Part shown: positions 38,313 through 64,000 of the stretch, piece by piece
Numbering within the stretch: the first letter of the stretch is position 1
Layout of the letters: every line of letters starts with the position of its first letter
Assembly (NCBI GenBank): GCA_021234155.1
Contig: JAJEKV010000009.1
Span: 10,980,546 to 11,044,545, forward strand
Length of the DNA stretch: 64,000 nucleotides
Reading direction: 5' to 3'
Source: Isoetes taiwanensis
Taxonomy: Eukaryota > Streptophyta > Lycopodiopsida > Isoetales > Isoetaceae
Program-made: the position numbers and the translations under genes
The notes under the pieces: model-generated
Seen by the model: only the letters and a program-made list of their open reading frames with translations
Database searches by the model: none
Told to the model about the DNA's origin: nothing

Positions 38313-39168
38313 TTATCTCGTAATAAGATTGATCATACCGCCACCATCGACCGAACATGGTGAACAGTTTTGGCCCACGCGGTGCATGCACCGCGGGTGT
38401 TGATGTGGGCGCATCGCATTAACAAAAGTAATACAGGTTTTGTAAAATGTGCTCGTAGTGCCGGACATAGTTGTAGGATAGTCGAAGGGGTCGAGAGGAA
38501 TTTTGATTTTAGCAAGTTCTTGTTGAAGTTCGTGAGGGATTGCGTGTAGTTGTGGTGGATCCGTGGGTTGTTGTTGCTCAGCAATAGATGTCGCTACATT
38601 GTTGAGGAGGTCGACTTCAGCAAAGAATGTTGAGTGGTGGTGTTGCGATGTCGCGGGCATTCGTGGTCGGGCTCCCGATCGTGGTGGTAGCATTGACGAT
38701 GACTTGAGTGCCTTACCTTCCGCACGCTCGATGAGTTGAAGCAGATTTTTGCGAAGTTTAGGTTGAACATGAGGAAGTAGTTGATCCGCATTGGGTGCAA
38801 AATGAACAGATTTGGTTGATGGCTCACCGGGTACGTAATCGGGTCGCAAAACTTGGTGCACGGGTGCTTATGGCGCGGGGAATGAGGGAGAACCTCAATC
38901 CAAATGGAGGATTCAAGGCCGGTGTTGATTGCATGGTAAATTTCTTCTTGGAGTTGATCATCCAATTGTTTTTGAGTTGTTTGTCGCTGGCGGGTTGTTG
39001 TTGTGGTGGCCGTGGTGGCCGCTTGAGGATACCGGGCGGGGCCTTGCCTTCCCTTTTGGCTTCCCATACTTGAAAAGGTGTAAGACGACCGCCGCGGGTT
39101 TGATTGGTGCCGTGAATTTGTATTTGAACTTGAGGAAGTTGAGGACAATTGCAGACCGATGACCCCAT
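38313..39168 (-). pseudogene. Protease and Gag C-terminus of LTR-RT2
   Basis: The frame with YVPGEPSTKSVHFAPNADQL, then PHVQPKLRKNLLQLIERAEG and AIPHELQQELAKIKIPLDPF, parallels the LTR-RT1 ORF (KVHFAPDLEKLMPNVMPKVR and LELQEELAKIKIPLSLA). The protease site reads SVDGGGMINLITR, again Asp-Gly-Gly. A CCHC-like knuckle and a Pro/Gln-rich linker (KRPPRPPQQQP) lie at 39168-38960. Confidence 0.75.
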
Positions 39169-40299
39169 TGGTCACAGCTTGAAACATTGGGACTTGCTTG
39201 ATCAAAAGTGAACGAGGAGGTCCACGCCAGGTTGCCGCTGTTGCCGGGTTGTTGTTGTTGTCGGGTCGCCCCGGTTCCGGGTTGAGTTTGGCGGGTACCT
39301 TCGTGACTTGGTGAACAAGACGATGTCGATACGGATTTGGTCGCGGATTTGTACATTCTTCGCTGGTGTGGTTCTCGCATGTTGCGCCGCTTGCAATGGA
39401 TCATGCTATCCACAGAAAGTTACACTCATTCGCCAGATGTCCCGAAAAATCGCAAATAGTACACCAAATGTTATTTCTGGGGAACTGCCGCCGGAGGCAA
39501 ATGAGGTGCGTGGGTGTAGCCGAGGAAATGGGAGTATCGTGGGCTTGATCACCGCGGAGGAAACATGAACAGAAAGTGATTGACTAATTCAATGGCTTCT
39601 TGTAATGTCTTGGGGCGCAAATACTCAGTCATAAATCGGATGTGAGAGGGTAAGCCTTGAAGAAACCACACTAGAATTTGGCTTTGGGTTGGAAATTCCT
39701 TCAACTTGTTGACTAAGATCCGCAAATGGCCCAAGAAAGTCTCTCGGCATTCTCCCGGTTCCGCTTTTGAGTGTGTTGAGGTCGCTCAGCCAGCTTGTTG
39801 ATCATCCGCAAGGGTGCCGTAATGGGAAAGAAAAGAGGTCTTCATGTGTATCCAATCTTGTTTCCAAAGGGGCTTTTGTTTGCCATCACCATTCGTGGGG
39901 TGCTCCACGCAGGTCAGGTCCCGAAAAGATGTGGAATTTTAGTTTTGGATCTGAGTGACCATTGAGATCCGCAAGTGACTCAAATTCATCCATGTGAGCC
40001 CGAGCACTCGGGTCTATGTGTTTACCTTTATCATTTCCAAAGAGTGGATATTGGAGTTTTAAAGCATGTGTAGGAGTCGGCAAGATGAATGGGTGTTTGC
40101 ATTTGTGGAAAAGAAAAAACAAGAGGGTGTTGGTTGTCGACAGGTACCGAACCCGCATAGGTTGTGTGAGATTAGTAAAAAGAGGTACCAAGCAAAATGT
40201 AGGGGAACAAAGGTTGTGACAGTATGAACAAATGCGGGGGGGAACGCTTAAGGGAACAGACGGTAGGGGAATTGACAAAGGTGGAAGCGGTGGTACCAA
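39169..40299 (-). pseudogene. Gag of LTR-RT2, frameshifted
   Basis: The N-terminal frame has LKLQYPLFGNDKGKHIDPSA, then HMDEFESLADLNGHSDPKLK and FHIFSG. Capsid pieces follow (LRILVNKLKEFPTQSQILVW, FLQGLPSHIRFM). A Cys/His segment near 39430-39350 probably is the first zinc knuckle. The LTR-RT1 counterpart is 10497-11890 and the second copy of this region is 58775-60653. Confidence 0.65.
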
Positions 40300-40680
40300 G
40301 TTCCTAAAGAAAGATTACCAATAGAGAAAAACATTTTGCGTATGTTCCGCAGAAAAATTGCGGTGGGTCCGCCGATCTTGAGTTGGGGATTCCGGGTGGA
40401 GTAAATTCAAAGGGTCAGGTTGGGCACCACCGCATGATGTGGCTAACAGGAACGAATAATGGCGACCTTCCACAGGGGAGGTCGGTCCGAAAGTTGTCGG
40501 GTGTAGGTGGAACAGATTGCGCCTCAGACACCCGAGAGAAGAGACAATCAACCAGAGTGTATGTGACATATTCATGGAGGCGCCAAGGCAACTCATGGCG
40601 ACGCGCCTTGACCCATCCGTGTTGAATATCGCCTGAGTAAAGAAGGATTGAACATGGTATCAATACAAATTTTCGTATGA

Positions 40681-40698
40681 GCCCGCAACAAAGCGCCA
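40681..40698 (-). promoter_or_regulatory. Primer binding site of LTR-RT2
   Basis: On the minus strand TGGCGCTTTGTTGCGGGC lies a few bases inside the 5' LTR. The TGGCGC start is shared with the corrected reading of the LTR-RT1 site. The tRNA is not identified. Confidence 0.55.
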
Positions 40699-40701
40699 AA
40701 G

Positions 40702-41298
40702 AGTTTGGGGGTCCCGCACGGATCGCCGAGGGACAGATCTCCTCGGAGATCCTTGAAGTCCGGCAGTGGCAACCCAGACACCTTTGTCACGCCGGATTTT
40801 TGCTAACAGAGGAAAGAACAAGAAAACTCGATAAAACAAAGAATTGCAATACACAATGAAACACACAAGACACTTGTGGAGAACACGGTAATCCATTGAT
40901 CAAAACAAGTGTACAATGAAGGCTCAAAAGAGCGATTAACAAAGCACTCAAAGATGTCCGCCTCAGAGTGACACAAAAGAACACTCAACCCTCCCGAAGG
41001 AGCAAAATGCTACAATATATAGGAACACCTGAGTGGCCTACTGCCCGACCTGATCCTCATCATGACAACGCTGCGTTCCACTACTTGGGCACTGAACAGA
41101 ATCGAGCCGGCCCAAGGGCAGCAACAGACAAGTAGTGGCCCGGCCAGGGGTCCTACCTTTGGGTCTTCTCGCTTGAGGAGCTTTGACCCGCCGTGGCGCC
41201 TTGTGGATCCCCTTCTTGGACACTGTGGCCCAAGGGGGCCTCCCTCATGCATGCAGCAAAGTATAGACCCGTGTGTCTCCAGTAGGTGTGGGCTAACA
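40702..41298 (-). repeat. 5' LTR of LTR-RT2
   Basis: The first bases read AGTTTGGGG where TGTTTGGGG is expected. It ends CTAACA at 41298. A TATA-like run (minus) lies near 41011-41021 (CAATATATAGG on plus). A 3'-terminal 426 bp of the same LTR recurs at 60997-61422. Confidence 0.9.
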
Positions 41299-41339
41299 GT
41301 TGTCAATCATAAACAATCATAAGCAAATCATATTGCTAT

Positions 41340-41790
41340 CATATGTAAACATAAACCTTATACATATACTTGGAATGTAAACCTTATATTCATATGTACA
41401 CCTTATATTCATACTTGGAATGTAAACCTTATATTCATATGTAAACATTATATTCATATGTACACCTTACATTCATACTTGGAATGTAAACCTTATATTC
41501 ATATGTACACCTTATATTCATATGTACACCTTATATTCATACTTGGAATGTAAACCTTATATTCATGTGTACACCTTATATTCATATGTACACCTTATAT
41601 TCATATTTGGAATGTAAACCTTATATTCATATGTAAACATTGCTATCAATCATAAACAATCATATTGCTATTCATATGTAAACCTTGCTATTACATAAAT
41701 ATACAAAACCTTATACATAAACCTTTTACATAAACCTTATACATATACTTGGAATGTAAACCTTATATTAATAGAATAGAATATGATTTT
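41340..41790. repeat. AT-rich minisatellite, ATTCATATGTACACCTTAT units
   Basis: Irregular tandem array of about 20-bp units (CTTATATTCATATGTACAC) and a longer variant ending CTTGGAATGTAAAC, arranged in a higher-order pattern. The same array with few changes is at 61430-61910. Repeats are direct and variable in number without unique spacers, so it is a minisatellite. Confidence 0.9.
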
Positions 41791-42147
41791 ATCGTCAAAC
41801 CTTGCTATTACATAAATATACAAAAAACATGTCAACACTATGGAACAAAATTGTGTTGCATGTATACAAGATCCTCATAATATTTTAAAAAGAAAACATC
41901 CTCATAATATCCTCCTGGTGGTAAAAGCACTCTGTGGTGTATCAAAAACGTGCATTTTGACGCCACATTTTGGCACCACCTTTGTGGTAGAATCGGGTGG
42001 TGCATACCGGGGGAGAGATTATGGGAGTGCGAATTAATGAGCGTCGGTTATTTTGAATTTTATGCCACGTCATTGTCCACCTTTTTGAATTAAGAAAGAA
42101 TCACCTCTTCCTCTATTTTTTTGCCGCTTCTTGCCGATTGAACCCTA

Positions 42148-43785
42148 ATGGAGTCGGAATTGAACGCCACTGGTTACACGATGAAATCTCTCCTCAAACA
42201 AGAGATTGTGCCCCACGAAGATCTAAAGAAGCTTTGGGGTGACAGAGTTCCAAATAAATCGCTACGTATTTTCCCCAAATGTTTTGTTCAAACCGAAAAA
42301 ATTAAGGCATATGTTTTCTTGTACAGTTTGAAGAATCCGAGCAATGAACAATACAAAGAGTTCATGCAAATTTACAAAAGAATTACAGGGAAGCCACATA
42401 CATGGGGTGGAATGGCTCCTCGAACCCGGGCAAAGGGCTTATTATCCGCATATAAAGGGGAGGTCAACTGGAAGAGCTTCGGATTATTATAAAACTCCCG
42501 GATGAGAAAGCCGAGGCCAGTTTTCTTCTAGACCCAAGAGAAAGCATAGGCAAATCCAACCCGACGAGGAGGGAAAATAGTAAAAGTGACAGGATGATGA
42601 AGATGATAGGGAAATAACCAAATCAGGTTCCTCTAGACCACACATTCAATCAACTCACAATCAAAACAAAAGCAGAGCAATGTTCTCGAGACCAAACATG
42701 CCATTGCGGTATATTCAATTATTAGTTGTGTTACAACAGAAAAAATCTCAAGCTTGATCTAGATTGTTTCTATCAACACGTAAAAGGTAACATCAAATCC
42801 ACTTCAAGAATCGTATGTCTACTACCATTTTGCATCATGTTGGTCAGATTGTCATGTTGTGTCTCTATGATGCCATCTCGGGGGCATTTCGCGGCAATGG
42901 ATGCCGAATGATAGATGAGGTATGTGTGGTGGTGGTGAGTTGTTGGCATCCACCATGTCCCACACCACACCCCACGATCTCCCACCACTACACTCTACCA
43001 TCTCCCACCGCCACACTCCCACACCACACACCACCACCACACTCCACCACCACCACCACACACACCACCACCATCACCACACCCTCCACCACCACCACCA
43101 CACTCCACCACCACCACCACACTCCTTCACCACCACCACACTCCACCACCACCACACCACACCACCGCAGACTCCACCATGTCCCACACCACAATCCACC
43201 ACCACCACACTCCACCACAACCACACCACACCACACCCCACCACCACACCCCACACACCACCACCACCACACCACACCCCACCACCACACTTCATCACCA
43301 CACTCCACCATGTCCCACACCACACTCCACCACCACCACATTCCACCACCACCACACCACACCACCACCACCACCACTACACCACCACCACCACCACAAC
43401 GTGTTGTGTGGTGTGTACTGTGCAGCGTATGTTGTGTGGTGTGTGGTATGTGGTGGTGTGTAAAGACTACCTTGTGTTGTGTGGTGTGTGATTGTGGTTT
43501 TCCATCAAGACGCGGGCTTACTATGTTAGGAGGTCGACATATACGTGTAGTGTTTTGTTTTGCGACTATGGCGTGACTTTGTGAAGGAATGGTTGGCTGC
43601 AACATCGCCTAGGGTTTGATAGATGCAAGCAACGGATAGGAAAAATGATATCAAAAGAAAGATTGAGTTGATGGAGCATAAAGCATCGAAATTAGAGCTG
43701 ATTTGCAATGTGATGGCAATCAATCATGACAAAGAACCGAAAAGCGCAGAGAGGGTGTTCGGGTTGTGTTTAACCAAAGGATGAA
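42148..43785 (+). pseudogene. Gene A, spliced gene of unknown function (first copy)
   Basis: It starts at ATG 42148 with MESELNATGYTMKSLLKQEI, then PHEDLKKLWGDRVPNKS and EQYKEFMQIYKRITGKPHTW, followed by an acidic, Ser-rich part in the next frame. Small exons follow, then an intron holding a long CCACCACAC array, then a last exon whose frame is clear in the second copy (IKRKIELMEHKASEIRADLH, ending VRVVRTKG). Splice sites are conserved in both copies. I recognise no domain. It lies next to TE genes and may be a transposon accessory gene. Indels against copy 2 break the frame at about 42430 and elsewhere. Confidence 0.5.
42930..43480. repeat. CCACCACAC minisatellite within an intron of gene A
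   Basis: About 450 bp made almost only of C, A and T in CCACCACAC, CACTCCACCA and related words, followed at 43400-43480 by a shorter G/T-rich stretch (GTGTGGTGTG) complementary to it. It begins right after the GTATGTGTGG donor. Transcribed RNA could fold into a long hairpin. Long apparent ORFs rich in His, Thr and Pro here are translation of the repeat. Confidence 0.9.
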
Positions 43786-44043
43786 GAGCTAAATGGTAAA
43801 GTGTTGTTCCGGCTAGGAATTAATTAAAAACCAAATTGAGCTAAAGGCATGTGAAGACTTCATCACTGGAGCTGCTACCTCGAATGCAAAGATTTGAGAT
43901 TTTTTCTCGAGCGTAGTGGTCATGACACCTTTTTAGATCCCGGCAGACTTCCAATGCTTCCCGAGGCGTAAGAAGAGGGTGATGAAGGTTGTCCATTTTG
44001 TGGACGTTGTCCGAAATGGGAGGGTAAAATGTTGCCAGCCAGA

Positions 44044-44801
44044 TAGCGTAATGCAAATACCAAGATCACATTCCATGTCTATCACACCATTTGAGGTAAA
44101 TATTATCATCTCTAACCCTCGCCTAAAGACTCTATTGATTTTGAATTTGTTTTGCGCATTACTCTAGAACCTGCTGCAGCCCCGCCAGGGCCACATTATG
44201 ATCGAGACATGGCTTTTGGCTTTTGGTGTTCGAGTGGTACCACAAGAACCAATAGACACAAGTAAGTCCAAAGAGGGGTGAAAGCAAGGTTTGGGAAGTT
44301 TCGATGCTTGTACCCGTGTCTCTTTCATCCTGGCTTAGTCTCTTCCATCCTGGTCGGGTTTAGTCTTTTTTTGTCCTGTTTATTGTATCTAAAGTGCCCC
44401 TCGATGAGATCGCCGCCATTTTAGGGGCACTTTAGATATATATAAACAGAACATCGAAAAGAGAGTAAAAGCCCGGCGCGGACCCTCTTGAATGGTTGTC
44501 AACTCACCAGGCTTGATATTGTTCGCTGCAAACAATATAGATTCACGCCGCAAACAAATACCTTAACTAATGTTTACCGATGTTGTCACGTGTCCACCGA
44601 CTTAGTGTTTGCAGAATTGCGTAAATTTGAGACCAAGGATATCCAACAGCTTATCCACGCCTCGATCGCTTATGAGACTGCAAGATATCTCCCCGGTTGT
44701 ACCTAGAATTCACCCCATTTGATACTCCTAAGTCAATCCCACTGCCGACGGCATGGAGACTCCAAAACGAAATTTGATAGTCAACTGAATGCAATGTACA
44801 A
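44044..44801 (+). pseudogene. Gene B upstream exons (first copy, truncated at its start)
   Basis: Homology with B' begins at 44044 (GCGTAATGCA). The upstream exons seen at 53996-54210 in B' are missing here because block A is joined directly. The exon ending at 44801 (donor AA then GTAAGTACC) encodes LRKFETKDIQQLIHA and FTPFDTP in broken frames; the B' copy is clearer. No domain recognised in this part. Confidence 0.5.
44386..44438. repeat. 15-bp perfect inverted repeat beside a TATA run
   Basis: TATCTAAAGTGCCCC (44386-44400) and its exact complement (44424-44438) enclose 23 bases. TATATATAAA follows at once. The same hairpin and TATA run occur in B' at 54578-54630 with a changed loop but unchanged arms. 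It could be a promoter element of gene B or a small mobile hairpin. Confidence 0.85.
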
Positions 44802-44880
44802 GTAAGTACCGATGCCACATACATGATTTATTTTTGTATTTTTTTCTCGTGGTCTTCCTCATTTCAATTATGTTGCGTAG

Positions 44881-45754
44881 ATAAATGCTACCGCAACTGA
44901 AGCCATGACGAAGAGATTCCTAGTGCATCCGATTTAGGGGGAAAAATTAATTCCCTTTGAGATTCATTCTCAGTATGGGGTCCTTCACCGTAAAAAGTTT
45001 TGGTGTCAATATGAGCCAAATGCGGATGCAGTGATGAAGCCGACAAAGAAACCCCGATCCTCGACAAGATGCAGACTGCCAACGAGTCCAATACAACCTC
45101 AACCAACAAAACCAAGAGGTTAACTGAAATTCTCCTTGTTTCGATTTTAATGGGGTTTTAGGCAAGTTTTATGACTTGAAAGAGAGGATCCCCTCAGATC
45201 GGCCGAGCCAGAAGTGACAATCTAGAAATTGAACCATCAAAAGTTCGCAGCCTCCGTGCCCGGATTTCGTGGAGTTCTTAGAATGGTGTTTTTCAAAATT
45301 TGAGATTGCATTGTGCTCCAAAGATGGCTAAGAGTAATGTTGACTTGTTGACGAGAAAGTTGCCGCAGGAATATAAGGGCAGATTTCTTTTATTTGGAAT
45401 CGTGGATTACCGCACCAACACAAAATTAAAAGTGGTTAATAAGCCAATTTTCCTTAAGGATCTGTCCAAAGTGTACCAGAAATTTTGGAGATACCAGGTG
45501 ACAAACACATTGTTGATAGATGACAGAGATATAAGGGTTCTCGCCAACCAAATTTCAACACAATGATATGTCCAAATAGTTTTGCTCCTACGTTTGGATT
45601 CCAATTTCCTTTGGAGCAACTCAAACCATGGTCGGGAGGGACTTCCGCCGCGAAAAGTGTGCCAATTTATGTGAAGGAACATCAAATGTGGAACATGTGG
45701 GATTCTCAAGAGTCACAAGAATCGCATGAAAATGCTCGACAAGTATTTTCATAA
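44881..45754 (+). pseudogene. Gene B: FCP1/NIF-like HAD phosphatase domain (first copy)
   Basis: The acceptor TGCGTAG at 44880 opens an exon with FYDLKER, preceded in B' by LLVSDFNGVLGKFYDL, the HAD motif with the catalytic Asp before x-Asn-Gly. Then come SKMAKSNVDLLTRKL, VVNKPIFLKDLSKVYQKFW and NTLLIDDRDIR. The wording KPIFLKxL followed by NTLLIDD is that of plant FCP1-like (NIF) phosphatases, which remove phosphate from proteins such as the RNA polymerase II tail. The region at 45240-45300 (FLEWC-like) also fits. Frames are broken at several CAG/CTG sites. Confidence 0.7.
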
Positions 45755-45841
45755 ATGAATCTTGTAAAACTCTTTGAAAGTCAATATAAGTAAAAGAATT
45801 TCTATGATATGTGTTGTACTTTTTCAATTTAAAATATTTGA

Positions 45842-46663
45842 ATGGATTGTGAGCAAATGTTCTCGTGTGTGTTTAGAACTAGAGATGATAGAGCTTCGGC
45901 AGTCCCTGACTATCTAAAGCCAAATACACATGTGGAAGTGGTGCTGAATGGAACTGAAACTGTCGTGATTAGCTCCACCGACATCAAAATTTTGGAAGCT
46001 GATACGCAGTGGTTCAATGATCAATTGATCCTCCTCTTCTCAAGGTGATACTTTCATCTGATTTGTGATCATCAGGATTGTGCGCATATGTTTGCAGATA
46101 CATGGAATACTTCTTGATTCTCCAAGGAATGAGCCATCCCTTTCATTTCTTTGACCCTCTTTTTCACTCGACATTGTCCAAGGACACAAATAGTTACAAA
46201 ACAATAAGGAAACATGTGAATCTGGATAAGTGCCGCGACATGTTTTTTGCCCGCTTGTGATGGACATCACCGACCTGCTTTTCGATTGTAAACCACGCCA
46301 AGTCTCGCATCGGAGAGATATAAACCAGTGGATATATCACTTTGATAGCTCTGCTTGCATGGCGTAAGGCATATATTGAGAGGTTAGTACTTGCTCATTG
46401 CATTTTGCTGTTGTGGCACAATGACAACAAACTTTGAGTGCAGGTTCCTGGAATTGCTTGGACACAATAATTTCAGCTTTACAACCTCAGATGTTGTGAA
46501 AATTTCCAGAACGCCTCTTCAAACCGATGGTCATTCATGTGGCCCCGCCAGATGTTCGCTTTATGCACAAATTTGTCGTGGGTACTTAAAAGGAGTGAAT
46601 ATATTGTTGCCTGATCTAGTAAGTCAACTTAAATGTAGCAGACAAACCAAACTCAAGTATTGA
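45842..46663 (+). pseudogene. Gene B: ULP1-like cysteine protease domain (first copy)
   Basis: STDIKILEADTQWFNDQLIL matches the W-x-N-D entry motif of ULP1/C48 proteases, which release SUMO from proteins. Next comes a segment with YHFDS (the likely catalytic Asp region, near 46340). Then, across an intron whose phase is exact (AG at 46382, acceptor at 46443, giving ERFLELLGH), follows PLQTDGHSCGPARCSLYAQI, with the Gln and the nucleophile Cys (46538-46540). It lies on the same strand as the phosphatase domain and probably in the same spliced gene. Divergent from canonical ULP1. Confidence 0.65.
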
Positions 46664-46785
46664 CAAAGTGTGGTTAACTCGTGTTGTGGACATTTCAGAC
46701 CAGGATCTAGTTGATGTTAGAGTGTTCATGCTTGAAGTTTTAAGATTAGAAGCAACAAAAGCTGGAACTGAGAGGAACATATGTA

Positions 46786-47102
46786 GGGTGAAAGCATGCT
46801 AGGGTGTACCATCTAAAGTTCTTTTAGGGAGTGCAAAACTACCAAAAAAAAGTACCCAACTGGTACTAGGAACTTGCATTAATGTCTCAATAAACAATAA
46901 GTTTGAGAGTTGATTCATTCATTTTAGTCTCTAATAGTATTTTTATCATCTACTATTATAGATTGACATGTTATTGACCTTCAATTCAAAAATTTTGGAT
47001 TGATTTTAATGGGAAGAAAAACAAAAGTACCAGCTTTTTAAAGTACCCAAGGTAGGTACTTTTGAGGGTTCAAAAGTGGTACACCATAGCATGCTTTCAC
47101 CC
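46786..47102. mobile_element. MITE with 26-bp terminal inverted repeats
   Basis: 317 bp bounded by inverted repeats that begin GGGTGAAAGCATGCTA (46786-46811 and 47077-47102, one mismatch in 26). B' lacks it: the sequence there goes from ACATATGTA straight to TTGGGAAG, so 57000 is an empty site. A short extra CCGGGGA follows the right end in B. The target duplication is not clear, so the superfamily is unassigned. Confidence 0.88.
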
Positions 47103-47299
47103 CCGGGGATTGGGAAGTATGTAGGTGCATGAGTCACCTCGCACTTAAATCATCAGATATATCTTTCTTATGTACATAATTGTTATTGTAACCTCGATTC
47201 ATTTCAATGAAAATTCATATTCAATTCATCTCACAAACAAAGGAATCAAGTGTTTCAAAGAATTCAAATCTTCAAAAGAAATCAAGACAAACTCATTTT

Positions 47300-49140
47300 C
47301 ACAAATTTGAAGTACAAAACTTCACATGAGTTCTCAAAACTACGTAATGGTTTTACATTTCATCATCATCGAAAGAACTTCGGCAAATTTTGTAAAATTT
47401 TCTCCTCATCTAAAGGATCCATCCTATATACACCTGCTTTTGACGCTTTAGTTGGTGGCATGTGAAGTCCGATTGCACGATCCGTTGTGAATACTATGCC
47501 TAAGCGCTTTTTACCGCAAAAATCATAGTCGACGGTTGATCTTGCTCCTTCTTGTAATACATACCTTCTATGACACTATCACCGGGCGAGGTACCATGTT
47601 CCATTGAGTTGGAAGTCTTTCTCCACTATCCATTTTGGTTTTGTGCACATCGTAATCCAAAATTCAAACCCTCATCATTCCCTTTCGAGCAACAACAAAG
47701 AAAATTATCACCAACTATAAGTGCCTCTCGCTAACATCGTGGGATTGGAGGAGAACAAGGACCCGGCTGATTTACGGGTCCTCAATGTCGCATGCACATT
47801 GAGGATGGTACAATAACTTGAAGTTTCCAATCATCAACGAGTGCTTGTTCACACAACCGCCCCACATGCCATCCAAGCAAGAGTCGCAGGCTAGCATGAA
47901 AGTTCCCTCGCAGTAACCGCAATGGAGATTCGTGATTGAATGTATGTACACAATGGATCCGCCTAGTGTCCAAAAATCCTTTCTCGCACCCCATGCTTTC
48001 TTTCTATCTATATCCTCCACCTTGACTTCCCAAAAGAACCTTTTTATATTCTTCCTCTTACGGGTTTCAGATGTGTTCATCCACTCCTGATGTTCCACAA
48101 GTAAACATCTCTTCGAACTTCTACCACTTCATGAGCATTACCCAATTTTATGTCAAGTATTTTAATTGCGCTTGTCTTAACCATCTCTTCAACTCAGCCA
48201 GCTTTTGCCATCGTGTTCACCTTTCCCGTGGTTAGAACCAAAAAATTCCACATCATATAGACATCGCTGTCGCTTTTATGTACCTAGCCACAAAGTAAAA
48301 TGGTCTAGAAGCCTTGAATTGAGATGTCGCACCATCCGAAAACACATAATGTCTCTTTGGAACCCTTCCTTTCTCGCCCGTGATATTTGTGGTGCTTCAT
48401 CAAGCAAAGGTTGCACCTAACAAAGTATCGTGGTTCCCTATCATCCGATACATAGTAATGTAATCTCATCCGCCATCGAAGTCATACCGATATGTTATTT
48501 GAACCAAAATGGTAATCTGGTTATTGACCCAAATAAGATCGACCGCACCTCCTCTTGTTCCTTGAATGTATAGTTCTCTCTCGCAAAATCCACTACCGAG
48601 ACATGCATCCGGAGATTCTCCGTAGCTCCTTAAACTGCTTTTGCCCGCCATTGGTACCGAAATTATGCAAAGGAAAGATTTTTAGACGCTTCTTCGCTTA
48701 TCCGTATTCTTTGGTTCTCGCCTCATTGTACCGATGAGTCGGGCCTCCTACCGTAACTCGAGACGCTGTCTTTTTCATAGTCAATGTAATTCCCATTTCA
48801 CTTTCCTACACGCCACTTCCTTCCATGGGACAGTCCGAAACTTCTTGATTCCACACAGTCACAATTTCCAAGGATGCACGCCTTCTTGTGAAACTCATCT
48901 AATTCACTCTTTGGACACAATATAGATCTCCACAAGCTTCCTCAGACTTGCAATTTTATGCTGGTGTGCCCCGCATTGACCAAGTTCATGTGATCTACAA
49001 ACATCGTAGGTGCAAGTGCAATTCTTCTGATGTTTGGTTCTCATCCCATTGAGTCCATCCACTAGCATTTGCATCCTCACGTACGAATGCAACAGCAACT
49101 ATTGAAGTCTTTCAATTTCACAACAAACCAGTGGTTTTAG
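47300..49140 (-). pseudogene. Tnp2: second DDD transposase-like gene
   Basis: Minus strand, same family as Tnp1. Cys/His part (49000-48900): CTCTYDVCRSHELGQCGAHQ. First Asp (48588-48590) in VVDFARENYTF; then QITILVQITYRYDF. Second Asp (48334-48336) in the SDGATSQFKASRPFYF reading. Third Asp (48210-48212) in FFGSNHGKGEHDG. A Cys-rich part (CGYCEGTFMLACDSC, 47920-47870) follows, then a C-terminal module with a GMYYKK block near 47570. It converges on gene B. Each motif is intact but lies in different frames because of indels. Confidence 0.7.
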
Positions 49141-49319
49141 CTTCTCAAAAGCTCAAGATCTAATCTTAATTTCTCGATGTTGGTCCGTAAAACCTCTTGA
49201 ACAATAGCATCTGCATGAAATGAACAAAGAACCGTTAGATGTGTATACCACACCAAACCATGCACCATACCATGCCCCACACTCATCATATTCACTGAAC
49301 GAGCACCTTAGTGTTGTAA

Positions 49320-49699
49320 TACACACACACACACACACCCCACCACACACCATACCATTCACCACACACCATACACCAAATGGTGGAGTGTGGAGGGTGG
49401 TGGAGTGTGGTTGTGGTGGTGGTGGAGTGGTGGTGGGGGGGGGGGGGTGGTGGTGGATTGTGGTGGTGGTGGGGTGGTGGTGGGGGGTGGTGGTGGAGTG
49501 GTGTGTGGTGTGGTGGTGGGGGTGGTGGTGGTGGTGTGTAGTGGTGTGTGTGGTGCTATGATGTGGTGTGGTGGAGTGGTGGTGGGGTGGGTGGTCGGTG
49601 GTGTGTGGTGGAGTGTGGTGGTGGTGGAGTGTGGTGGGGGGTAGTGGTGGTGGTGTGGTGTGGTGTTGTGGATTGTGGTGTGATGTGGTGGTGGTGGTG
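49320..49699. repeat. GTGGTGGT minisatellite with CA run and G13 tract
   Basis: A CACACA run (49320-49340) leads into CACCACACACCA words and then into a G/T-rich array, the reverse complement of the gene A intron array, with 13 consecutive G at 49435-49447. On the Tnp2 strand it reads as CCACCAC and lies upstream of that gene. The array is cut at 49699 by the CACTA element. Apparent Val/Gly/Trp-rich ORFs are repeat translation. Confidence 0.9.
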
Positions 49700-49727
49700 C
49701 ACTACAAGAGAATGAGGGTTTTTGTCG

Positions 49728-50025
49728 TAAAAAATCGCCGATGGTCTTCATAAAAATAGATTAACCGCCTAGATCCCATCGGGCCGACGATTTATCCGAC
49801 GAATATTATCCGGACGATTGAGTGTCGAAAAATCGCCGAAAATCGCCAATTCTTCCGGACGCATTGAGTGTCGAAAAATCGCCGGGCTTTTTCCACGCAT
49901 TGAGTGTCGAAAAATCGCCGAAAAACGCCATAAAAATCGCGCCGTAAAAAATCGCCGACAAATCGCCACAATTTTTGTCGAAAAATCGCCATAATTTTCA
50001 CCAAAAAATCGCCAAATCTTTCATC
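49728..50025. repeat. Left subterminal repeats of the CACTA element
   Basis: About a dozen short units of the form GTCGAAAAATCGCCG, spaced 11-40 bp. CACTA transposases bind such arrays near the ends. The right-end units read GTCAGAAAAA-type on the same sense, so the left units may have lost A from CAG. Confidence 0.85.
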
Positions 50026-50039
50026 ATTTTTTTTTTGGC

Positions 50040-53000
50040 GTAGGGGTCTATTTGCATTTTGTCCCGATTTTTCATTTTGTCTCCAATTCTGAATTTTGTA
50101 TCGATTTGCACTTCCTCTTCATTATCTATTTAGTAATGCTACCGAAGTTTAACATGAATGTAGGCTAGAAGTTATGAATAAATAATAGAACCGTAAAACA
50201 AGGACTCCTTTTATTTGAATGTAATCATAGTTACATGTAACAATCTTTACAACGCCAACAAGTAAAATGTGGCAAGATGCTTCTTCTTCAAAACATGTTC
50301 TATAAACAAGTAGCCTGCAACCTGCAACCTCCAACAATAGAATGTTGAACCAAGCAATAGCAAAGTGCGCAGTAGTGAATGCACGAAGGAGCAGTCCCTC
50401 TTCGATAAGCCCCCTTTCTTCATCGCACCTGCAACATTTGATAAATAACCCCCGCCAACAACCCGGACATTATGGTCGGGCCTTTAAAGACGTAAAAAGA
50501 AAATAGTGATCAATTGAACAAATCATTTTAAGGACGAAACCGCCTTTGCAAAGAAATTATGAACTTTCAAGGCCTCAAACATCTCATTTGATATGTCTAT
50601 GAACCAAGAAGAAAAAAATCAGCAAGAGAGAGAGATCAAGGTAAAGGAACACCGCTGATCGTGATTTTTCTTGAAGGCAAAAATTTCATTGTCTTTACCA
50701 GACTCAACCACTTTGTAGCAGCTCATAAAATTTTAAGACTCAAATGTCTCCCTTTATATGTCTATGAACATACCAAAATTTATGCTTCTAGGAACATAAC
50801 AAAAATCAAAAATCAGAAAAATATTTATCAAACAGAGAGAATTAAAGTAGTGTCACCCCAATTTTGTGTCTAACTCGAGAATCATCGATGTCGGTAATAA
50901 AAACATGGAAAGAAAGTCCGAGCTATTTAAAGGCACAAGTTTCTATTTAAGAAGGCCTTCTAGCATTCTTAGCTTTCAATATAGATGTAAATGTTTGTGC
51001 TATAAATACATCTTACTCGCTAAAACATAAAAAATACAACTACATAAGCAAGCATTACCTAAACAACTCGCTTTCACCTTTATGGCCGCCACTACACTTA
51101 GATTTTGTAGCATCTAAATACAACCGTGATAGGAACAAAGCATGTAGCTATGGCCATTAATTCCAAAGATATCCATATCCAGCTCAATAAGAACTCGAAC
51201 TATCAAAGATTTAGCATTCTCTCAAATATGCATTTGGCACTTTAAGAAACCATGTAAGCAAAGATTTCTATTTTCTTACATACCTTAAAATTTTATCATG
51301 ATAATCGGCCATTTCCTCGCCTTTAGAAATTTATTGAAATCGCCAAACATTACCATAAAAAAAACATTCTCCAACACGATTAGAAGAAGCATGGAAGCTT
51401 GTTCTTGCACCATAACCAAGGACATATGTTCAATTTAATATGAATACTAGAAACCTTAAAACTTTCCATGGTCGAAACTAAGCATTCAGCAAAGTACCTA
51501 TATTACTATAGGCTAACCCGAAAATATATGCCCCGGACAATAATAATTATTCCCGCCATTTGAGTGTCCACGCCGCACTGTGGTCTGCAACAGAGGGCCC
51601 GCTTTGTCAACAACCGCTTGTCACAATTTTTGATCCGCAGCCCATTTTCTGATCTCTATTCAACCTATTTATGAACATTTAAGACCATTTTCATGACATC
51701 TTTCTAAAACTCTATCTTTTTGCCAATGAAGCAAGAATCTTGCAAAGGTTTCACATTCTAGATCATATATTATTTCTCAAATGTAAAATTGTAAAACCAT
51801 AAGAACCAACCTGGTTTATTTGCTCCAAGCTTCAGATTTTGTCATGATCCGCACAACCGAATCAAGCCCAAAAGCGAGCCGTTTTAGCACAAGTCTCTAT
51901 CACCTTGGTACAAATGAGCTTTTTTTAGTCGTTTCAAAGCACAAAGGCCCTTTTCGGCAGAACTGGACCACCTGGTCTTGGCACATCACAGGTTCAAAGC
52001 TATCCGCAGATGTGTAGGCGGCCATTTTAGGCGTATATTTGCACGCTTAAGCACCTAGGCTTATTAGCATAACACAGCCTATCAACAAATGGATCTAGGT
52101 ATACCGAACATAACCAAATCGGTAGCCTAACAGATCCGACAACAGCTATTTTCGCATGGCATAGAAGTCCAAATTTTATTTTTTTCGACCGCAATGTGCA
52201 AATTCAACAAGTATTTTTGCTATCACACTCCATGTTTGTCGCGATCACAGAGGGTCGCTTTTGGCGGCCATGGACAAAATCCATTTTTATAAACCACATA
52301 TGCCCTAAATCGACCTTGCAAGTTTTCAAAGGTCGACGCTCACCATTATTAGTTTTTGGCAAGAATACCATCAAATTTTTGTAAAGGACATGTGTAACCT
52401 TATGACACTTAGAAGCCAAATAGTTACCTACACCAAAGAATTCCAAGCGTGAATTCAGATTTAATTTTCTTGTCAAATGTCACCAAATAGAAAGCATTTT
52501 GTATTTCTACAATATTACTTATCATTGTCAACCATTAAAACATTGTGCTGGTTTGAACCCCTATTTGCGCTTTGTGTTGTTAAAGAGCATTCTCAAGCAT
52601 TTTGCCAAATGCAAAATTACAAGCACGAAATATGGCTAAAAACTAAAAGGCAATAAGCCTTAACTTTTTTTAAAAACAATATACGATATCCATTAAGGAT
52701 CATGAAAGTTTGAAGGGTTAAATATTCCCATTATCCATTTTTTGCCAAATACAAGGCCTTAGAGTTATCCCCAAAGTAGTATTATTATTTGTTATCCATG
52801 TCATCTTCTTTGTTTCTATCCATGCCATCTTTCAATCATTTGACGGTTCATGTGTACCAACCTTGTCATATGTCTTGTTCCCAAGTGGGCATCCAAATTT
52901 AGAACTTGTGAAAATCCTATAATCAATTTCCTCATATAGTTCATAGTTCATCATTCCTTATAAATTTCAATAAAACTATATTCAACTTCTAGATATCATA

Positions 53001-53200
53001 GCTAGCGCGGCAAAATTTTGACAATTCAAAGACTAAAGTCTTTTAGAAAATAGTGGCAACAAACCTAAAATACTAGTTAGGGATGGAAACTTGCGATTGT
53101 TTTCCCCCAAAAACTTAAATAATACATCATTGACAAAATCGAGGGGTTAGCTTTTCAAAATATCAAATGTCATCTACAACGGACTCGTAAATGAAATGTT
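50040..53200. other. Interior of the CACTA element, no gene seen
   Basis: AT-rich sequence with only short frames on both strands (longest 90 codons, 52204-52476, no domain). No splice-bounded exon was recognised. It may contain remnants of transposase introns, but nothing supports that. Confidence 0.6.
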
Positions 53201-53215
53201 ATGACTAAAATTGTA

Positions 53216-53520
53216 ATAGTGCTATCTTCTGACGTATTCTCTGAAGATTTTTCTGACGATAAACTTGACACAAATTTTGACGCAAATCCTGACGCTTTTT
53301 CTGACGCACTTTCTGACGCTTTTCTTGACATTTTTTCTGACGAAAAGTCTGACGCTTTTTCTGACGCTTTTTCTGACGCTTTTTCTGACGTTACATTTCT
53401 GACGCTTTTTCCGAATGTCCGAAAATTGTCAAAAATCGCCGTAAAAGCAATCGTCGAAAAATTCGCCGAGCATCTGCCGCAAAAATTTCTTTAGTCAGCC
53501 TGACGATTTTTCTGACAAAT
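53216..53520. repeat. Right subterminal repeats of the CACTA element
   Basis: A dense run of TTTTTCTGACGC units (about fourteen between 53228 and 53410) in direct orientation, with scattered units to 53520. Read on the other strand they are GCGTCAGAAAAA, close to the left-end unit. Confidence 0.88.
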
Positions 53521-53541
53521 AATAGTCATTCTCTTGTAGTG

Positions 53542-53790
53542 GTGGAGGGGTGTGGCGTGGGATGTGGTGGGATGTGTGTGCATGTGGTGGTAATGTGGTG
53601 GTCGCAAAGATGTGGTGGTAGTCTATGGTGGTGGGATAGATGGGGTGTGGTGGGGTGAGGGGGGAGATTCTCCGCATCATACATTAACATGCACACACCC
53701 ACATGACACCATGGACATAACGCAACCCACACCACACCACACCACACCACACCACACCACACCACACCATCACGACACCACACATCACAT
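53542..53790. repeat. GTG-rich and CACAC-rich minisatellite right of the CACTA element
   Basis: A G/T-rich array (53541-53670) is followed by a short unique stretch and then about a dozen CACAC units (53728-53790). It continues the minisatellite interrupted at 49699. The two arrays are mutually complementary. Confidence 0.88.
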
Positions 53791-53995
53791 CACATCACTT
53801 TTATCCTATTTCTTCCGACATAAAAAATCTGCCTAGCCCAAGCCTCATAAACACTTCAAATTGCAGACACCCCGATAATAATTACATTCCTCTTCTAATC
53901 ATTAGAAAAGGATCTCGGTCCTAAATCCTTCTCCTATCCCCGATTTTTACGCTTCATTCCCAATTCGCCAAATCGGCAGAAGTTCATTCCGCAAC

Positions 53996-54996
53996 ATGGT
54001 GAAGAAGAAACTGAAAATGCAAACAAGGTCAAGATAAGAATAGAATAGAATATGATTTTATCGTAAGAAGCGTATGATGAAGTTGATAGCAGCACTACTT
54101 TGTACAATAAACCTCGTAGTACCGATTTTAAAGCGTAAAGGACTGCGAAAAAATTAAGAAAAGGAAGACAAGGGCCAAAGACAAAGAAAGACTCAAAACC
54201 TGTTGGTAAAGTAAGTATTCTTGTTCAATAGCGTAATGCACACCCCTGCATCACACATTCCATGTCTATCACACCATTTGAGGTAAATATTATCATCTCT
54301 AACCCCTCGCCTAAAGACTCTATTGATTTTGAATTTGTTTTGCGCATACCCTTAAAACCCCGCCAGAGTCTGCCTTGGGCTACATTATGATCGAGACATG
54401 GCTTTTGGCTTTTGGTGTTCGAGTGGTACCACAAGAACCAATAGACACAAGTAAGTCCAAAGAGGGGTGAAAGCAAGGTTTGGGAAGTCTCGATGCTTGT
54501 ACTCGTGTCTCTTTCATCCCTGCTTAGTCTCTTCCATCCCGGTCGGGTTTAGTCTTTTTTTTTTGTCCTCGTTATTGTATCTAAAGTGCCCCCGATGAGA
54601 TCGCCGCTCATTTTAGGGGCACTTTAGATATATATAAACAGAACATCGAAAAGAGAGTAAAAGCCCGGTGCGCGACCCTCTTGAATGGTTGTCAACTCAC
54701 CAAAAAGCTTGATATTGTTCACCGCGAAACAATATAGATTCGCCGCAAAACAAGTACCTTAACTAATGTTTACCGATGTTGTCATGTGCTCCATCGACTT
54801 AGTGTTTGCGTAATTGCGTAAATTTGAGACCAAGGATATCCAACAGCTTATCCACGCCGACGCTTATAAGATCGCAAGATATCTCCCACAGTACCTAGAA
54901 TTCACCCCATTTGATACTCCTAAGTCAATCCCAAAATGCCGACGCATGGAGACTCCAAAACGAAATTTGATAGTCAATCGAATGGAGCCAGATCAA
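53996..54996 (+). pseudogene. Gene B' upstream exons (second copy)
   Basis: ATG at 53996 opens MVKKKLKMQTRSR, a basic start. A second stretch (54065-54205) reads DEVDSSTTLYNKPRSTDF and KKLRKGRQGPKTKKDSKPV before a donor (GTAAAG), and could be a nuclear localisation region. A later exon (54814-54996, donor GTAAGTACC) has RKFETKDIQQLIHADAYKIA, then RYLPQYLEFTPFDTPKSIP. Homology to the first copy starts at 54231. No domain recognised. Confidence 0.5.
54578..54630. repeat. 15-bp inverted repeat beside TATA run, B' copy
   Basis: Arms identical to those at 44386-44438; the loop differs by small indels (CGATGAGATCGCCGCTCATT here). TATATATAAA follows. Conservation of arms against a changed loop is compatible with selection, or with errors that happen to fall in the loop, which is rich in CG. 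Confidence 0.85.
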
Positions 54997-55074
54997 GTAA
55001 GTACCGATGCCACATACATGATTTATTTTTTGTATTTTTCTCGTGGTCTTCCTCATTTCAATTATGTTGCGTAG

Positions 55075-55940
55075 ATAAATGCTACCGCGAATCGAAGCCA
55101 TGACGGCGAGAGATTCCTAGTGCATCCGATTTGGGGGAAATTAATTCCCTTGAGATTCATTCCCAGACGGTCCTTCACCGTAAAAAAGTTTTGGTGTCAA
55201 TATGAGCCAAATGCGATGCAGTGATGAAGTTTTACAAAGAAACCCCGGATCTCGACAAGATGCGATCGCCAACGAGTCCAATACAACCTCAACCAACAAA
55301 ACCAAGAGGTTAACCGGAATTCTCCTTGTGTCCGATTTTAATGGGGTTTTAGGCAAGTTTTATGACTTGAAAGAGAGGATCCCCAACGGGCCGAGCCGTA
55401 AGTGACCATCCGTAAATTGAACCATCAAAGTTTGCGCTTCTGTGCCCGATTTCGTGAGTTCTTAGAATGGTGTTTTTCAAAATTTGAGATTGCATTGTGG
55501 TCCAAAGATGGCTAAGAGTAATGTTGACTTGTTGACGAAAAGTTGTCGCCAGAATATAAGGGCGCATTTCTTTTATTTGGAATCGATGATGACCGCACTT
55601 CAACACAAAAATTAAAAGTGGTTAATAAGCCAATTTTCCTTAAGGATCTGGCCCAAAGTGTACCAGAAATTTTGGAGATACCGTGTGACAAACACATTGT
55701 TGATAGATGACAGCAGATATAAGGGTTCTCAACCAACCACCAACACAATGATATGTCCAATAGTTTTGCTCCCACAAAGTTGATTCCAATTTCCTTTGAG
55801 CAACTCAAACCATGGTCGAGGGACTTCTGCCGCGTAAAAAATGTTTATGTGAAAAAAAATCGATGTGGAACATGTGGGATTCTCAAGAGTCGCGGTAACC
55901 GCATGAAAATGCTCGACAAGTATTTTCATAAATGAATCTT
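55075..55940 (+). pseudogene. Gene B': FCP1/NIF-like phosphatase domain (second copy)
   Basis: The acceptor TGCGTAG at 55074 is conserved. Frames give KRLTGILLVSDFNGVLGKFY, which holds the HAD nucleophile motif, then DLKERIPNGPSRK. Later frames give PIFLKDL, VTNTLLIDDSRYKGS and NTMIC. Against plant FCP1-like proteins the block NTLLIDDxxY followed by NPPNTAIFP-like residues is well matched. Motif I is cleaner here than in the first copy. Frames still break at suspected CAG/CTG sites. Confidence 0.72.
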
Positions 55941-56027
55941 GTAAAACTCTTTGAAAGTCAATATAAGTAAAAGAATTTCTATGATATGTGTTGTACTTTT
56001 TTCAATTAAAAATATTTGAATGGATTT

Positions 56028-56860
56028 CAGAGCAAATGTTCTCATGTGTGTTTAGAACTAGAGATGATAGAGCTTCGGCAAATCCCCCGGACTATCTAAA
56101 AGCCAAATATACATGTGGAAGTGGTGCTGAATGGAACCGAAATCGCCGCGGATTAGCTCCACCGACATCAAAATTTTGGAAGCCGACACGCGAAGTGTCA
56201 ATGATCAATTGATCCTCCTCTTTCTAAAGGTGATAATATCTGACGGTGTGATCATCGTGATTGTGCCGCATGATATGCATATGTTTGCGCATACATGGAA
56301 TACTTTGATTCTCCAAGGAATGGAGCCATCCCTTTCATTTCTTTGACCCTCTTTTTTTCACTGACATTGTCCAAGGACACAAATAGTTACAAAACAATAA
56401 GGAAACATGTGAATCGATAAGTGCCAGACATGTTTTTGCCTTGCTTGTGATGGACATCAATCGACCTGCTTTTCGACAGTAAGCCACGCTATCTCGCCAC
56501 GGAGATATAAACCAAAGATATATCACTTTGATAGCTCCTGCTTGCATGGCGTAAGCGCATATATTGAGAGGTTAGTGCTTGCTCATTGCATTTTGTCGTT
56601 GTGGCACAATGACAACAAACTTTGAGTGCGGTTCCCCGGAATTGCTTGGACACAATAATTTCAGCCTTTACAACCTCGATGTTGTGAAAATTTCCGTAAC
56701 GCTCTTCAAACCGATGGTCATTCATGTATTCCCCGCCAGATAGCCCATTTATGCACAAATTTGTGAGGGGTGTTCGCTATGCACAAATTTGTGAGGGGGT
56801 ACTTAAAAGGAGTGAATATATTGTTGCCTCGATCTAGTAAGTCATCTTAAATAGCAGACA
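56028..56860 (+). pseudogene. Gene B': ULP1-like protease domain (second copy)
   Basis: The acceptor is GGATTTCAG at about 56032, where the first copy reads GATTGTGAG. EQMFSCVFRTRDDRASA, STDIKILEADT and the nucleophile region (CATTCATGT near 56720) are present, but the Gly after the Cys is lost (TGTATT). A small tandem duplication follows (TATGCACAAATTTGTGAGGG twice, 56750-56800), so this copy would be inactive as read. Confidence 0.6.
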
Positions 56861-57258
56861 ACCAAACTCGCTATTGACAAAGTGTGGTTAACCGGCAGTT
56901 GTGGACATTTCGCACTGTGATCTAGTTGATGTTAGAGTGTTCATGCTTGAAGTTTTAAGATTAGAAGCAACAAAAGTCGAACTCAGAGGAACATATGTAT
57001 TGGGAAGTATGTAGGTGCATGAGTCACCTCAAGATTTAAATCATCAGATATCTTCTTATGTACATAATTGTTATTGTAACCTCGACATTCATTTCTCCCC
57101 ACGAAAATTCATATTCAATTCATCTCACAAACAAAGGAATCAAGGTGTTTCAAGAATTCAAATCTTCAAAAAGAAATCAAGACAACCTATTTTCACAAAA
57201 TGTAAGTACAAAACTTCATGAGTTCAGTAAAACTAATGCACGGTTTTACATTTCATCA

Positions 57259-57498
57259 TCATCGTAGTAAAGAACTTCGCAAATTTTGTAAAATTTTCTC
57301 CTCATCTAAAGGGATCCATCCTATATACCTGCTTTTGACGCCAGTTGGTGGCATGTGAAGTCCGACAGTAATGTGACCGTGGTTGCAGGAATACTTATGC
57401 CTAAGGCGCTCTATCGCAAAGATCATAGTCGACGTTGATCTTGCCTTCTTGTAATACATACCTTCTATGACACTATCATCATGGTGTTCATGTTCCAC
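57259..57498 (-). pseudogene. Tnp2' C-terminal remnant, cut at the junction
   Basis: The frame with DSVIEGMYYKK and WIPLDEEKILQNL corresponds to the C-terminal end of Tnp2 (47640-47350). The rest of the transposase is missing: at 57498 the sequence changes to LTR-RT2 reverse transcriptase. The end of Tnp2 is thus part of the duplicated B block, which shows that genes B and Tnp2 moved together. Confidence 0.6.
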
Positions 57499-57510
57499 TC
57501 TTGAAAAATG

Positions 57511-60653: not shown

Positions 60654-60654
60654 A

Positions 60655-61910: not shown

Positions 61911-62277
61911 ATTTTATCGTCAAACCTTGCTATTACATAAATATACAAAAAACATGTCAACACTATGGAACAAAATTGTGTTGCATGTATACAAGATCCT
62001 CATAATATTTTTTAAAAGAAAACATCCTCATAATATCCTCCACGGTGGTAAAAAGCAACATTTGTGGTGTATCAAAAACGTGCATTTTGACGCCACATTT
62101 TGGCACCACCTTTGTGGTAGAATCGGGTGGTGCATACCGAAGCGGAGATTGCGGGAGTGCGAATTAATGAGCGTCGGTTATTTTGAATTTTATGCCACGT
62201 CATTGTCCACCTTTTTGAATTAAGAAAGAATCACCTCTTCTTCTATTTTTTTTTTCGCTTCTTGCGATTGAACCCTA

Positions 62278-63905
62278 ATGGAGTCGGAATTGAACATGCC
62301 ACTGGTTACGATGAAATCTCTCCTCAAACAAGAGATTGTGCCCCACGAAGATCTAAAGAAGCTTTGGGGTGACAGAGTTCCAAATAAATCTGGCTACAGG
62401 TATTTTCCCCCAAATGTTTTGTTCAAACTGAAAAATTAAGGCATATGTTTTCTTGTACAGGTTGAAGAATCTGAGCAATGAACAATACAAAGAGTTCATG
62501 CAAATTTACAAAAGAATTACAGGGAAGCCACATACATGGGGTGGAATGGCTCCTGGAACCTGGGCAGTGGCTTATTATCTGCATATAAAGGGGGAGGCTG
62601 TTAATTGGAAGAGCTTCTCGGATTATTATAAAACTCCGGCGAGAAAGCCGAGGCCGATTCTTCTAGACCCAAGAGAAAGCATAGGCAAATCCAACCTGAC
62701 GAGGAGGAAAATAGTAAAAGTGACAGGGATGATGAAGATGATAGGGAAATAACCAAATCAGGTTCCTCTAGACCACACATTCAATCTGAACTCACAATCA
62801 AAACAGAAAAGCAGAGCAATGTTCTGAGACCAAAACATGCCATTGCAGGTATGTTCAATTATTAGTTGTGTTACAACAGAAAAAAATCTCAAGCTTGATC
62901 TAGATTGTTTCTATCAACACAGAAAAGGTAACATCAAATCCACTTCAAGAATCAGGTATGTCTACTACCATTTTGCATCATGTTGGTCAGTATTGTCATG
63001 TTGTGTCTCTATGATGCCATCCGTGGGGCATTTAGGTGCAATGGATGCCGAAATGATAGATGAGGTATGTGTGGTGGTGGTGAGTTGTTGGCATCCACCA
63101 TGTCCCACACCACACCCCACGATCTCCCACCACTACACTCTACCATCTCCCACCGCCACACTCCCACACCACACACCACCACCACACTCCACCACCACCA
63201 CCACACACACCACCACCATCACCACACTCCTCCACCACCACCACCACACTCCACCACCACCACCACACTCCTTCACCACCACCACACTCCACCACCACCA
63301 CACCACACCACCGGACTCCACCATGTCCCACACCACAATCCACCACCACCACCACCACTCCACCACAACCACACCACACCACACCCCACCACCACCACCC
63401 CCACACTCCACCACCACCACACCACACCCCACCACCACACTTCATCACCCCACACTCCACCATGTCCCACACCACACCCACCACCACCACCCACCACCAC
63501 CACACACACACCACCACCACCACCACACCACCACCACCACCACCAACGTGTTGTGTGGTGTGTCTTGCAAACATGTTGTGTGGTGTGTGGTATGTGGTGT
63601 GTAAAGACCACCTTGTGTTGTGTGGTGTGTGATTGTGGTTTTCCATCGCTAGGGTTTACTATGTTAGGAGGTCGACATATCGTAGTGTTTTGTTTTGGCA
63701 ACTATGGCAAAGGAATGGTTGGCTGCAACATCAGCTAGGTTTGATAGATGCAAACAAATCGGATAGGAAAAATGATATCAAAAGAAAGATTGAGTTGATG
63801 GAGCATAAAGCATCGGAAATTAGAGCTGATTTGCACGGATGGCAATCAATCATGACAAAAATCAAAGCGGCAGAGGGTGTTCGGGTTGTGCGAACTAAAG
63901 GATGA
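62278..63905 (+). pseudogene. Gene A' (second copy), unknown function
   Basis: Exon structure is clearer here: exon 1 62278-62848 (donor CAG then GTATGT), exon 2 62923-62955 (KGNIKSTSRI), exon 3 63036-63064 (MDAEMIDE, donor GTATGTGTGG), an intron with the CCACCACAC array, and a last exon from about 63700 to the stop at 63905. Exon 1 frames include NEQYKEFMQIYKRITGKPHT, WGGMAPGTWAVAYYLHIKG and, in another frame, an acidic segment (DEEENSKSDRDDEDDREITK). The last exon encodes a helical stretch (DIKRKIELMEHKASEIRADL). No family recognised. Confidence 0.5.
63075..63545. repeat. CCACCACAC minisatellite, intron of gene A'
   Basis: Same position in the intron as 42930-43480 and same words, with small unit-number differences. 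The C/A-rich array is followed by the complementary GTGTGGTGTG stretch (63545-63630). Confidence 0.9.
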
Positions 63906-64000
63906 AGAGCTAAATGGTAAAGTGTTGTGCGGGGCTAGGAATTAAATGAACCTGAAATTGAGCTAAAGGCATGTGAAGACTTCTTCTTTGGGCTGCTACC

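Follow-up and report, generated by a model that had tools for sequence, protein, structure and literature searches.

We describe here a family of cut-and-paste DNA transposons in Isoetes taiwanensis within which two convergent genes very probably serve as mover and cargo. The mover, Tnp2, is a transposase gene, and the cargo, gene B, appears to join FCP1-like and ULP1-like domains. The family was recognized in a 64,000-nucleotide stretch of DNA, hereafter called the window (C1100:10980546-11044545; contig JAJEKV010000009.1), and was searched for in the window's own assembly, which comprises 1.66 Gb in 1110 contigs. A first-pass annotation of the window had proposed that gene B (plus strand, approximately 44440-46800) and Tnp2 (minus strand, 49216-47408) converge and that a DNA transposon carries both. 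The convergent arrangement is confirmed, and the proposal of a shared transposon is borne out by the ends and the gene order of other copies.

The ends of the element were first revealed by the flanks of copy C973, both of which carry the family form of a 22-bp terminal inverted repeat (TIR; GGGTAAAAGCACGCTGTGGTGT). Homology between C973 and the window is unbroken over positions 45552-41920. Each DNA search of the assembly scored the best 40 candidates. For the gene-B-side end, 40 matches were scored, and all 39 from other copies start at window base 41920. For the opposite, array-side end, 38 of 40 scored matches, query copy included, start at the first base of the query. Both ends were sought in 11 copies, with 1 kb fetched at the array end, and were seen in nine. 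A perfect 4-bp target site duplication (TSD) flanks every copy for which both ends were read (9 of 9), and the target sequences share no common sequence. Among the seven copies with paired ends, five have the typical length of 9.9-10.1 kb, and the two of 14.9 and 22.4 kb presumably hold insertions. A capture-recapture calculation from 40 ends of each kind, seven of them paired, yields approximately 230 copies, a figure that derives from best-scoring rather than random lists.

Gene B and Tnp2 also recur together. Tnp2 DNA has 41 matches in its own genome (best 40 of 1338 candidates scored), and 30 Tnp2 loci were fetched, window included. In all 30, gene B lies convergently beside Tnp2, and homology continues through an array of GTGGTGG repeats. 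The fetched loci end approximately 1.5 kb past Tnp2, and therefore only the 3′ part of gene B is shown there; the shared part of gene B is shorter in L028 and L038. A probe covering 44043-44400 is present in 13 of 15 joined copies (L015 and L021 have no match). One could propose instead that gene B and Tnp2 belong to the host and sit in a block that was duplicated locally, because self-comparison of the window reveals two duplicated blocks (block A, 37027-43879 and 57497-64000; block B, 44043-47581 and 54228-57478). However, copies with sharp ends, TIRs, and TSDs are dispersed over many contigs, and we regard this explanation as exceedingly improbable.

A whole copy, C908a (locus L063), measures 9936 bp from TIR to TIR. 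Its order is TIR, a small open reading frame (ORF), a CCACCAC array, gene B, the catalytic transposase exon (minus strand), the GTGGTGG array, the first transposase exon (minus strand), and TIR. This order puts the second array between the exons of the transposase, both of which were assigned from homology, not transcripts. An ORF on the strand of gene B lies within the inter-exon interval (L028:133-636, minus strand) and matches no Pfam family. The CCACCAC and GTGGTGG arrays had earlier been placed on the outer sides of the element. Both arrays exist, but they are internal, because other copies are homologous to the window from 41920 to 54000, across both of them. Among the matches listed, array-side DNA of other copies likewise goes on beyond the array. 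The remains of three copies and the neighboring features in the window are as follows.

41920..54000, unstranded: window copy of the transposon; the gene-B-side end is kept, and approximately 1.9 kb of the array side is gone, with the TIR and first transposase exon; two insertions, the MITE and the CACTA element below
Window copy aligned to C908a by blastn: 41920-46785 = 19-4993; 47109-49697 = 4993-7630; 53536-54000 = 7640-8075
41920..41940, plus strand: gene-B-side TIR, GGTAAAAGCACTCTGTGGTGT in the window copy
42142..42489, plus strand: ORF near the gene-B-side TIR; sequence common to other copies, no Pfam family
42949..43398, plus strand: CCACCAC array, internal to the element
44386..44438, unstranded: 16-bp perfect inverted repeat, directly 5′ of the sequence TATATATAA
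44440..46800, plus strand: gene B, approximate limits; NIF/FCP1-like at about 45128-45751, then ULP1-like at about 45848-46618
46786..47102, unstranded: miniature inverted-repeat transposable element (MITE) of approximately 320 bp with a 26-bp TIR, GGGTGAAAGCATGCTAGGGTGTACCA
47408..49216, minus strand: Tnp2, predicted catalytic exon of a DDE/DDD transposase, from frameshift-tolerant alignment to P0002
49381..49699, plus strand: left part of the GTGGTGG array, between the two transposase exons
49700..53541, unstranded: non-autonomous CACTA element in the GTGGTGG array; 16-bp TIR CACTACAAGAGAATGA, TSD GTG, subterminal repeats
53542..54000, unstranded: continuation of the array plus flanking element sequence, to the break
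54228..57478, plus strand: B′, from the interior of a second copy (C908a 2243-5453) and fused to gypsy sequence
62063..64000, plus strand: gene-B-side portion of a third copy, cut off by the window edge

The inverted repeat at 44386-44438, together with TATATATAA, is a possible promoter region for gene B. Inverted-repeat scans around the gene B-Tnp2 pair and around Tnp1, a relative discussed below, yielded the MITE, this promoter-side hairpin, and otherwise apparently chance pairs. The TIR of the MITE resembles that of the transposon itself; the MITE, which the first-pass annotation had not listed, was not seen in the other 29 fetched loci and has no clear target duplication. The B′ fragment had been read as a duplicated block carrying gene B with the end of Tnp2, and thus as a sign that the two travel together. 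Its content is as described, but it does not speak for joint travel: its right edge lies inside Tnp2 coding sequence and meets gypsy pol at a short shared-sequence junction, which makes that edge a rearrangement junction rather than a transposon end. The 26 bp at 54039-54064, before B′, recur exactly in both A blocks (41770-41795 and 61895-61920), in the repeats that lie to the left of the element end there. Elsewhere, a Pfam scan of 83 of the 135 listed window ORFs yielded retrotransposon domains (polyprotein pieces) only, window scans for tRNAs and Rfam families were empty, and a viral contig scan gave 18 pattern matches, none of them confirmed. The retrotransposon pieces, the CACTA element, and the CHG-linked differences between repeats described below would be in keeping with a plant genome.

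The description of Tnp2 as transposase-like holds in that it belongs to a transposase family with a modelled member of DDE-type fold. A frameshift-tolerant alignment of Tnp2 with P0002 has 252 identical residues among 561 aligned, with 35 frameshifts and three stops. The modelled paralog, L079, shares 49% identity with the Tnp2 ORF in L028, and its model matches integrase and Mos1 structures. The best Z, 10.0, is moderately higher than the tool background of 7-8, and a Z of 8.0 is reached by an Argonaute chain as well. These DDE matches mainly cover residues 194-390 of the model. The candidate catalytic triad in L079 is D213, D298, and either D339 or E337; the three aspartates are invariant in the 16 compared, and E337 is T in one. 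Either residue might serve as the third catalytic acid. By homology, Tnp2 is the catalytic exon of a DDE/DDD RNase H-like transposase whose first exon lies near the opposite TIR. Other approaches were less informative. Pfam gave no family for the 631- and 674-residue paralogs or the Tnp2 read-through, and nothing beyond a weak DUF787 match when single ORFs from gene B and Tnp2 were scanned. A first structure model had a mean predicted local distance difference test score of 45, and Foldseek returned no match at E 0.001 (best 1.5e-3, to NurA). Database relatives of the transposase occur in land plants, a Klebsormidium alga, bivalves, rotifers, and a sea cucumber.

Gene B had been described as FCP1-like, then ULP1-like. 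The first part is upheld by a Pfam match of the gene B read-through (window pieces B and B′) to NIF/FCP1 (PF03031), which at 22.2 bits exceeds the curated cut-off of 21.8. The second part is carried by motif: one ORF piece of the cleaner copy L063 scores 17.8 bits to C48/ULP1 (PF02902), for which the cut-off is 20.7, and neither the window read-through nor the corresponding L028 piece matches this family. The 128-residue NIF-region ORF of L063, taken alone, gives nothing over the Pfam cut-off. Landmarks of each family can be recognized by eye, namely HW, D, and Q-x(6)-C for ULP1 and DFNG, WS, and LIDDS for HAD phosphatases. Accordingly worded, gene B is a predicted union of FCP1-like and ULP1-like domains. 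With the read-through as query, a PDB sequence search gave no useful match, and a protein search gave 4053 candidates with none at E 0.001. A different NIF-like piece occurs in L028 beyond the gene B homology (4603-4941, minus strand; 18.2 bits, under the cut-off). At L007:1303-2973, a ULP1 match is followed on the same strand by a NIF-like ORF (21.4 bits; cut-off 21.8), in the reverse of the gene B order, and this locus is perhaps another element type carrying both domains.

Distant relatives of the transposase bear on the age of the pairing. Three intact ones were read in context. The partner that converges on the transposase of L077 is a NIF gene (46.7 bits), with a PTP-NADK-like piece (33 bits) after it. 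L079 and L078 have convergent NIF- or ULP1-like pieces marked by 'LLIFELDGVL' and 'FLPACNDFHWSL', respectively. The latter two have no Pfam match to NIF or C48 and therefore rest on motifs read by eye. In a Pfam scan of ORFs opposite paralog transposases (46 of 104 listed ORFs plus four others), NIF was found in two of the 50 (L007 and L028 pieces) and GRAS in one. The window itself contains Tnp1 (27347-30033, plus strand), a distant member of the Tnp2 transposase family with a recognizable first exon (27347-27856). Because L077 is firm, L078 and L079 are assigned by motif, and no partner was seen for L086, L087, and Tnp1, the partner gene seems to recur in some relatives, with one firm case, but not in all. 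Adjoining the first exons of L079 and L077 are GGGTTAAAGCATGC (L079:2282) and GGGCATAAGCAC (L077:9866), each preceded by ATAAAA; these are possible TIRs of the respective subfamilies.

Several observations weigh against the view that gene B and Tnp2 are cargo and mover of one family, or against parts of it. The array end is absent from the 1 kb fetched in 2 of the 11 copies tried, and the array-side TIR of C1061 is damaged (9 mismatches in 32). For gene B, ULP1 scores under its curated cut-off, and NIF, on a read-through, just above its own. Active HAD phosphatases usually have D at the position of N in DFNG. Because gene B has Asn in place of this second Asp in the HAD motif, phosphatase catalysis is doubtful, and the domain may not be active. 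Among the relatives, the L077 partner carries the PTP-NADK-like piece, and ULP1 was not found there. No NIF or C48 match emerged by Pfam from 46 ORF pieces around L077 (the two named above excepted), L078, L079, L086, and L087. Moreover, L086 and L087 have no partner within 3.5 kb downstream, and none of the gene B type was seen beside Tnp1 in the window. In no copy that was read is the frame of gene B or of Tnp2 intact, which miscalls may largely explain. Finally, the evidence is that of sequence and of predicted structure.

The broken frames deserve particular attention. Outside clusters of differences, blocks B and B′ hardly differ, and many of the frame breaks look like long-read miscalls at methylated CHG/CG cytosines. 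When B (44043-46780) is compared with B′ (54228-56998), CNG or CG lies within 3 bp of 91 of the 123 clusters (40% expected), and CAG/CTG frequently stands opposite CGT/CGC/TCG. Indels occur in 67 of the 123 clusters and transitions alone in 23, a miscall-like pattern on which deamination alone was rejected as an explanation for the copy differences. The A blocks behave likewise, with CNG/CG near 119 of 161 clusters where 43% would be expected and near 32 of 37 where 37% would be expected. The competing explanation, that the family is dead and its broken frames are genuine, seems to us somewhat unlikely. It draws support from a 15-copy majority sequence in which the frames are still broken and from the 486-column Tnp2-end alignment, where CHG/CG sites show a weaker excess and a GAG/CTC control is as enriched (0.377 vs 0.169). 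In addition, the longest non-simple frame of L063 is just 242 residues, although L063 is denser in CAG+CTG than L028, which is the densest of the 30 loci and has the longest open frame (424 residues). The miscall-like pattern of the B and B′ clusters argues to the contrary, as do stop-free frames of 600-674 residues in at least nine paralog matches. Regardless, apparent pseudogenes in assemblies of this kind may be artefacts of miscalled methylcytosines.

With regard to classification, we know of no transposon that pairs an FCP1-like domain with a SUMO-protease-like one, nor of a Sola element that has an FCP1-like plus ULP1 gene, and the family is at least a new variant through its accessory gene. 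No title or abstract opening in our literature search names such a transposon, with coverage that was thin for subscription papers and without Repbase. CACTA elements have CACTA termini and a TSD of 2-3 bp, and this group is excluded by termini of GGGT and a 4-bp TSD. The TSD also excludes Mutator-like elements (MULEs), for which it is 8-11 bp. The KDZ group (Kyakuja, Dileera, and Zisupton) likewise consists of DNA transposons bearing accessory enzymes (TET/JBP), but is set apart by TSDs of 7-8 bp, as given in the accessible part of the source (PMC12730594). Kaonashi/VANDAL MULEs resemble our family as plant DNA transposons, and carry a separate ULP1 gene linked to silencing escape that would be a counterpart of gene B; they differ as non-TIR elements whose transposase is of another class, and the available portion of that report mentions no FCP1-like domain (PMC13317346). 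Ginger1 shares the 4-bp TSD, and some of its families have a ULP1 domain. However, the available text describes TSDs of CCGG or CCGT/ACGG, ends of TGTNR, and a gypsy-integrase-like transposase fused to ULP1 (PMC2836005), whereas our family has GGGT ends, a variable TSD, and the ULP1-like domain in a separate gene. CCGG or CCGT/ACGG occurs in none of the nine TSDs, and Pfam rve is absent from the 631- and 674-residue paralogs and the Tnp2 read-through; Ginger1 was therefore rejected.

The Sola superfamily, with its 4-bp TSDs, short TIRs, and presence in plants and invertebrates, fits best as a known home by TSD length, a comparison made by description. The chances seem evenly balanced that the family is an unrecorded Sola member and that the accessory gene alone is new. 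In the accessible parts of the sources, Sola2 elements are characterized by 4-bp TSDs (PMC3627910), Physcomitrella and Capsicum appear among the hosts of Sola1 (PMC9033089), and Sola is reported in bivalves (PMC10294476), where relatives of our transposase also occur. However, the dictyostelid Sola2 TSDs are described as AT-rich, AWWT and the like (PMC3627910), a form that fits none of the nine TSDs found here.

A working model can be outlined for the cargo-and-mover family. The transposase would bind the GGGTAAAAGCAC ends, excise the element, and reinsert it with a 4-bp stagger. Gene B might help the element in its host through SUMO removal from, and perhaps dephosphorylation or binding of, silencing or transcription proteins, and would then be functionally akin to the VANC/Kaonashi proteins with ULP1 domains that plant MULEs encode. 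Published precedents, as far as the accessible texts go, include ULP1-bearing VANC genes of KIU MULEs linked to methylation loss (PMC13317346) and ULP1 domains in Ginger1 transposases with a proposed role in transposition or repair (PMC2836005). Such an anti-silencing or expression-helping role is plausible at less than even likelihood, and we give the same rating to the idea that gene B is a captured host gene, a passenger of no benefit to the element. Direct service as a transposition cofactor ranks lower and is distinctly unlikely. Capture of ULP1 by plant MULEs is known (PMC13317346, in the part available). The mixture of NIF and PTP-NADK pieces in the L077 partner is also what a capturing element would produce, and no partner was seen for L086, L087, and Tnp1. 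Idle capture is harder to reconcile with the 3′ part of gene B in 30 of 30 Tnp2 loci and with a NIF-like gene at the same convergent place in the distant L077 subfamily.

What began as a guess is now a delimited family with defined ends, a target duplication, a gene order, and a transposase class unmatched by Pfam. If true, the pairing of FCP1-like and ULP1-like domains on a transposon would make testable the old question of why transposons carry SUMO proteases. It is tempting, if rather doubtful at present, to speculate that a superfamily of plant DNA transposons has long kept gene B to act on silencing or RNA polymerase II machinery controlled by SUMO and phosphorylation, which would let heavily methylated copies express and move.

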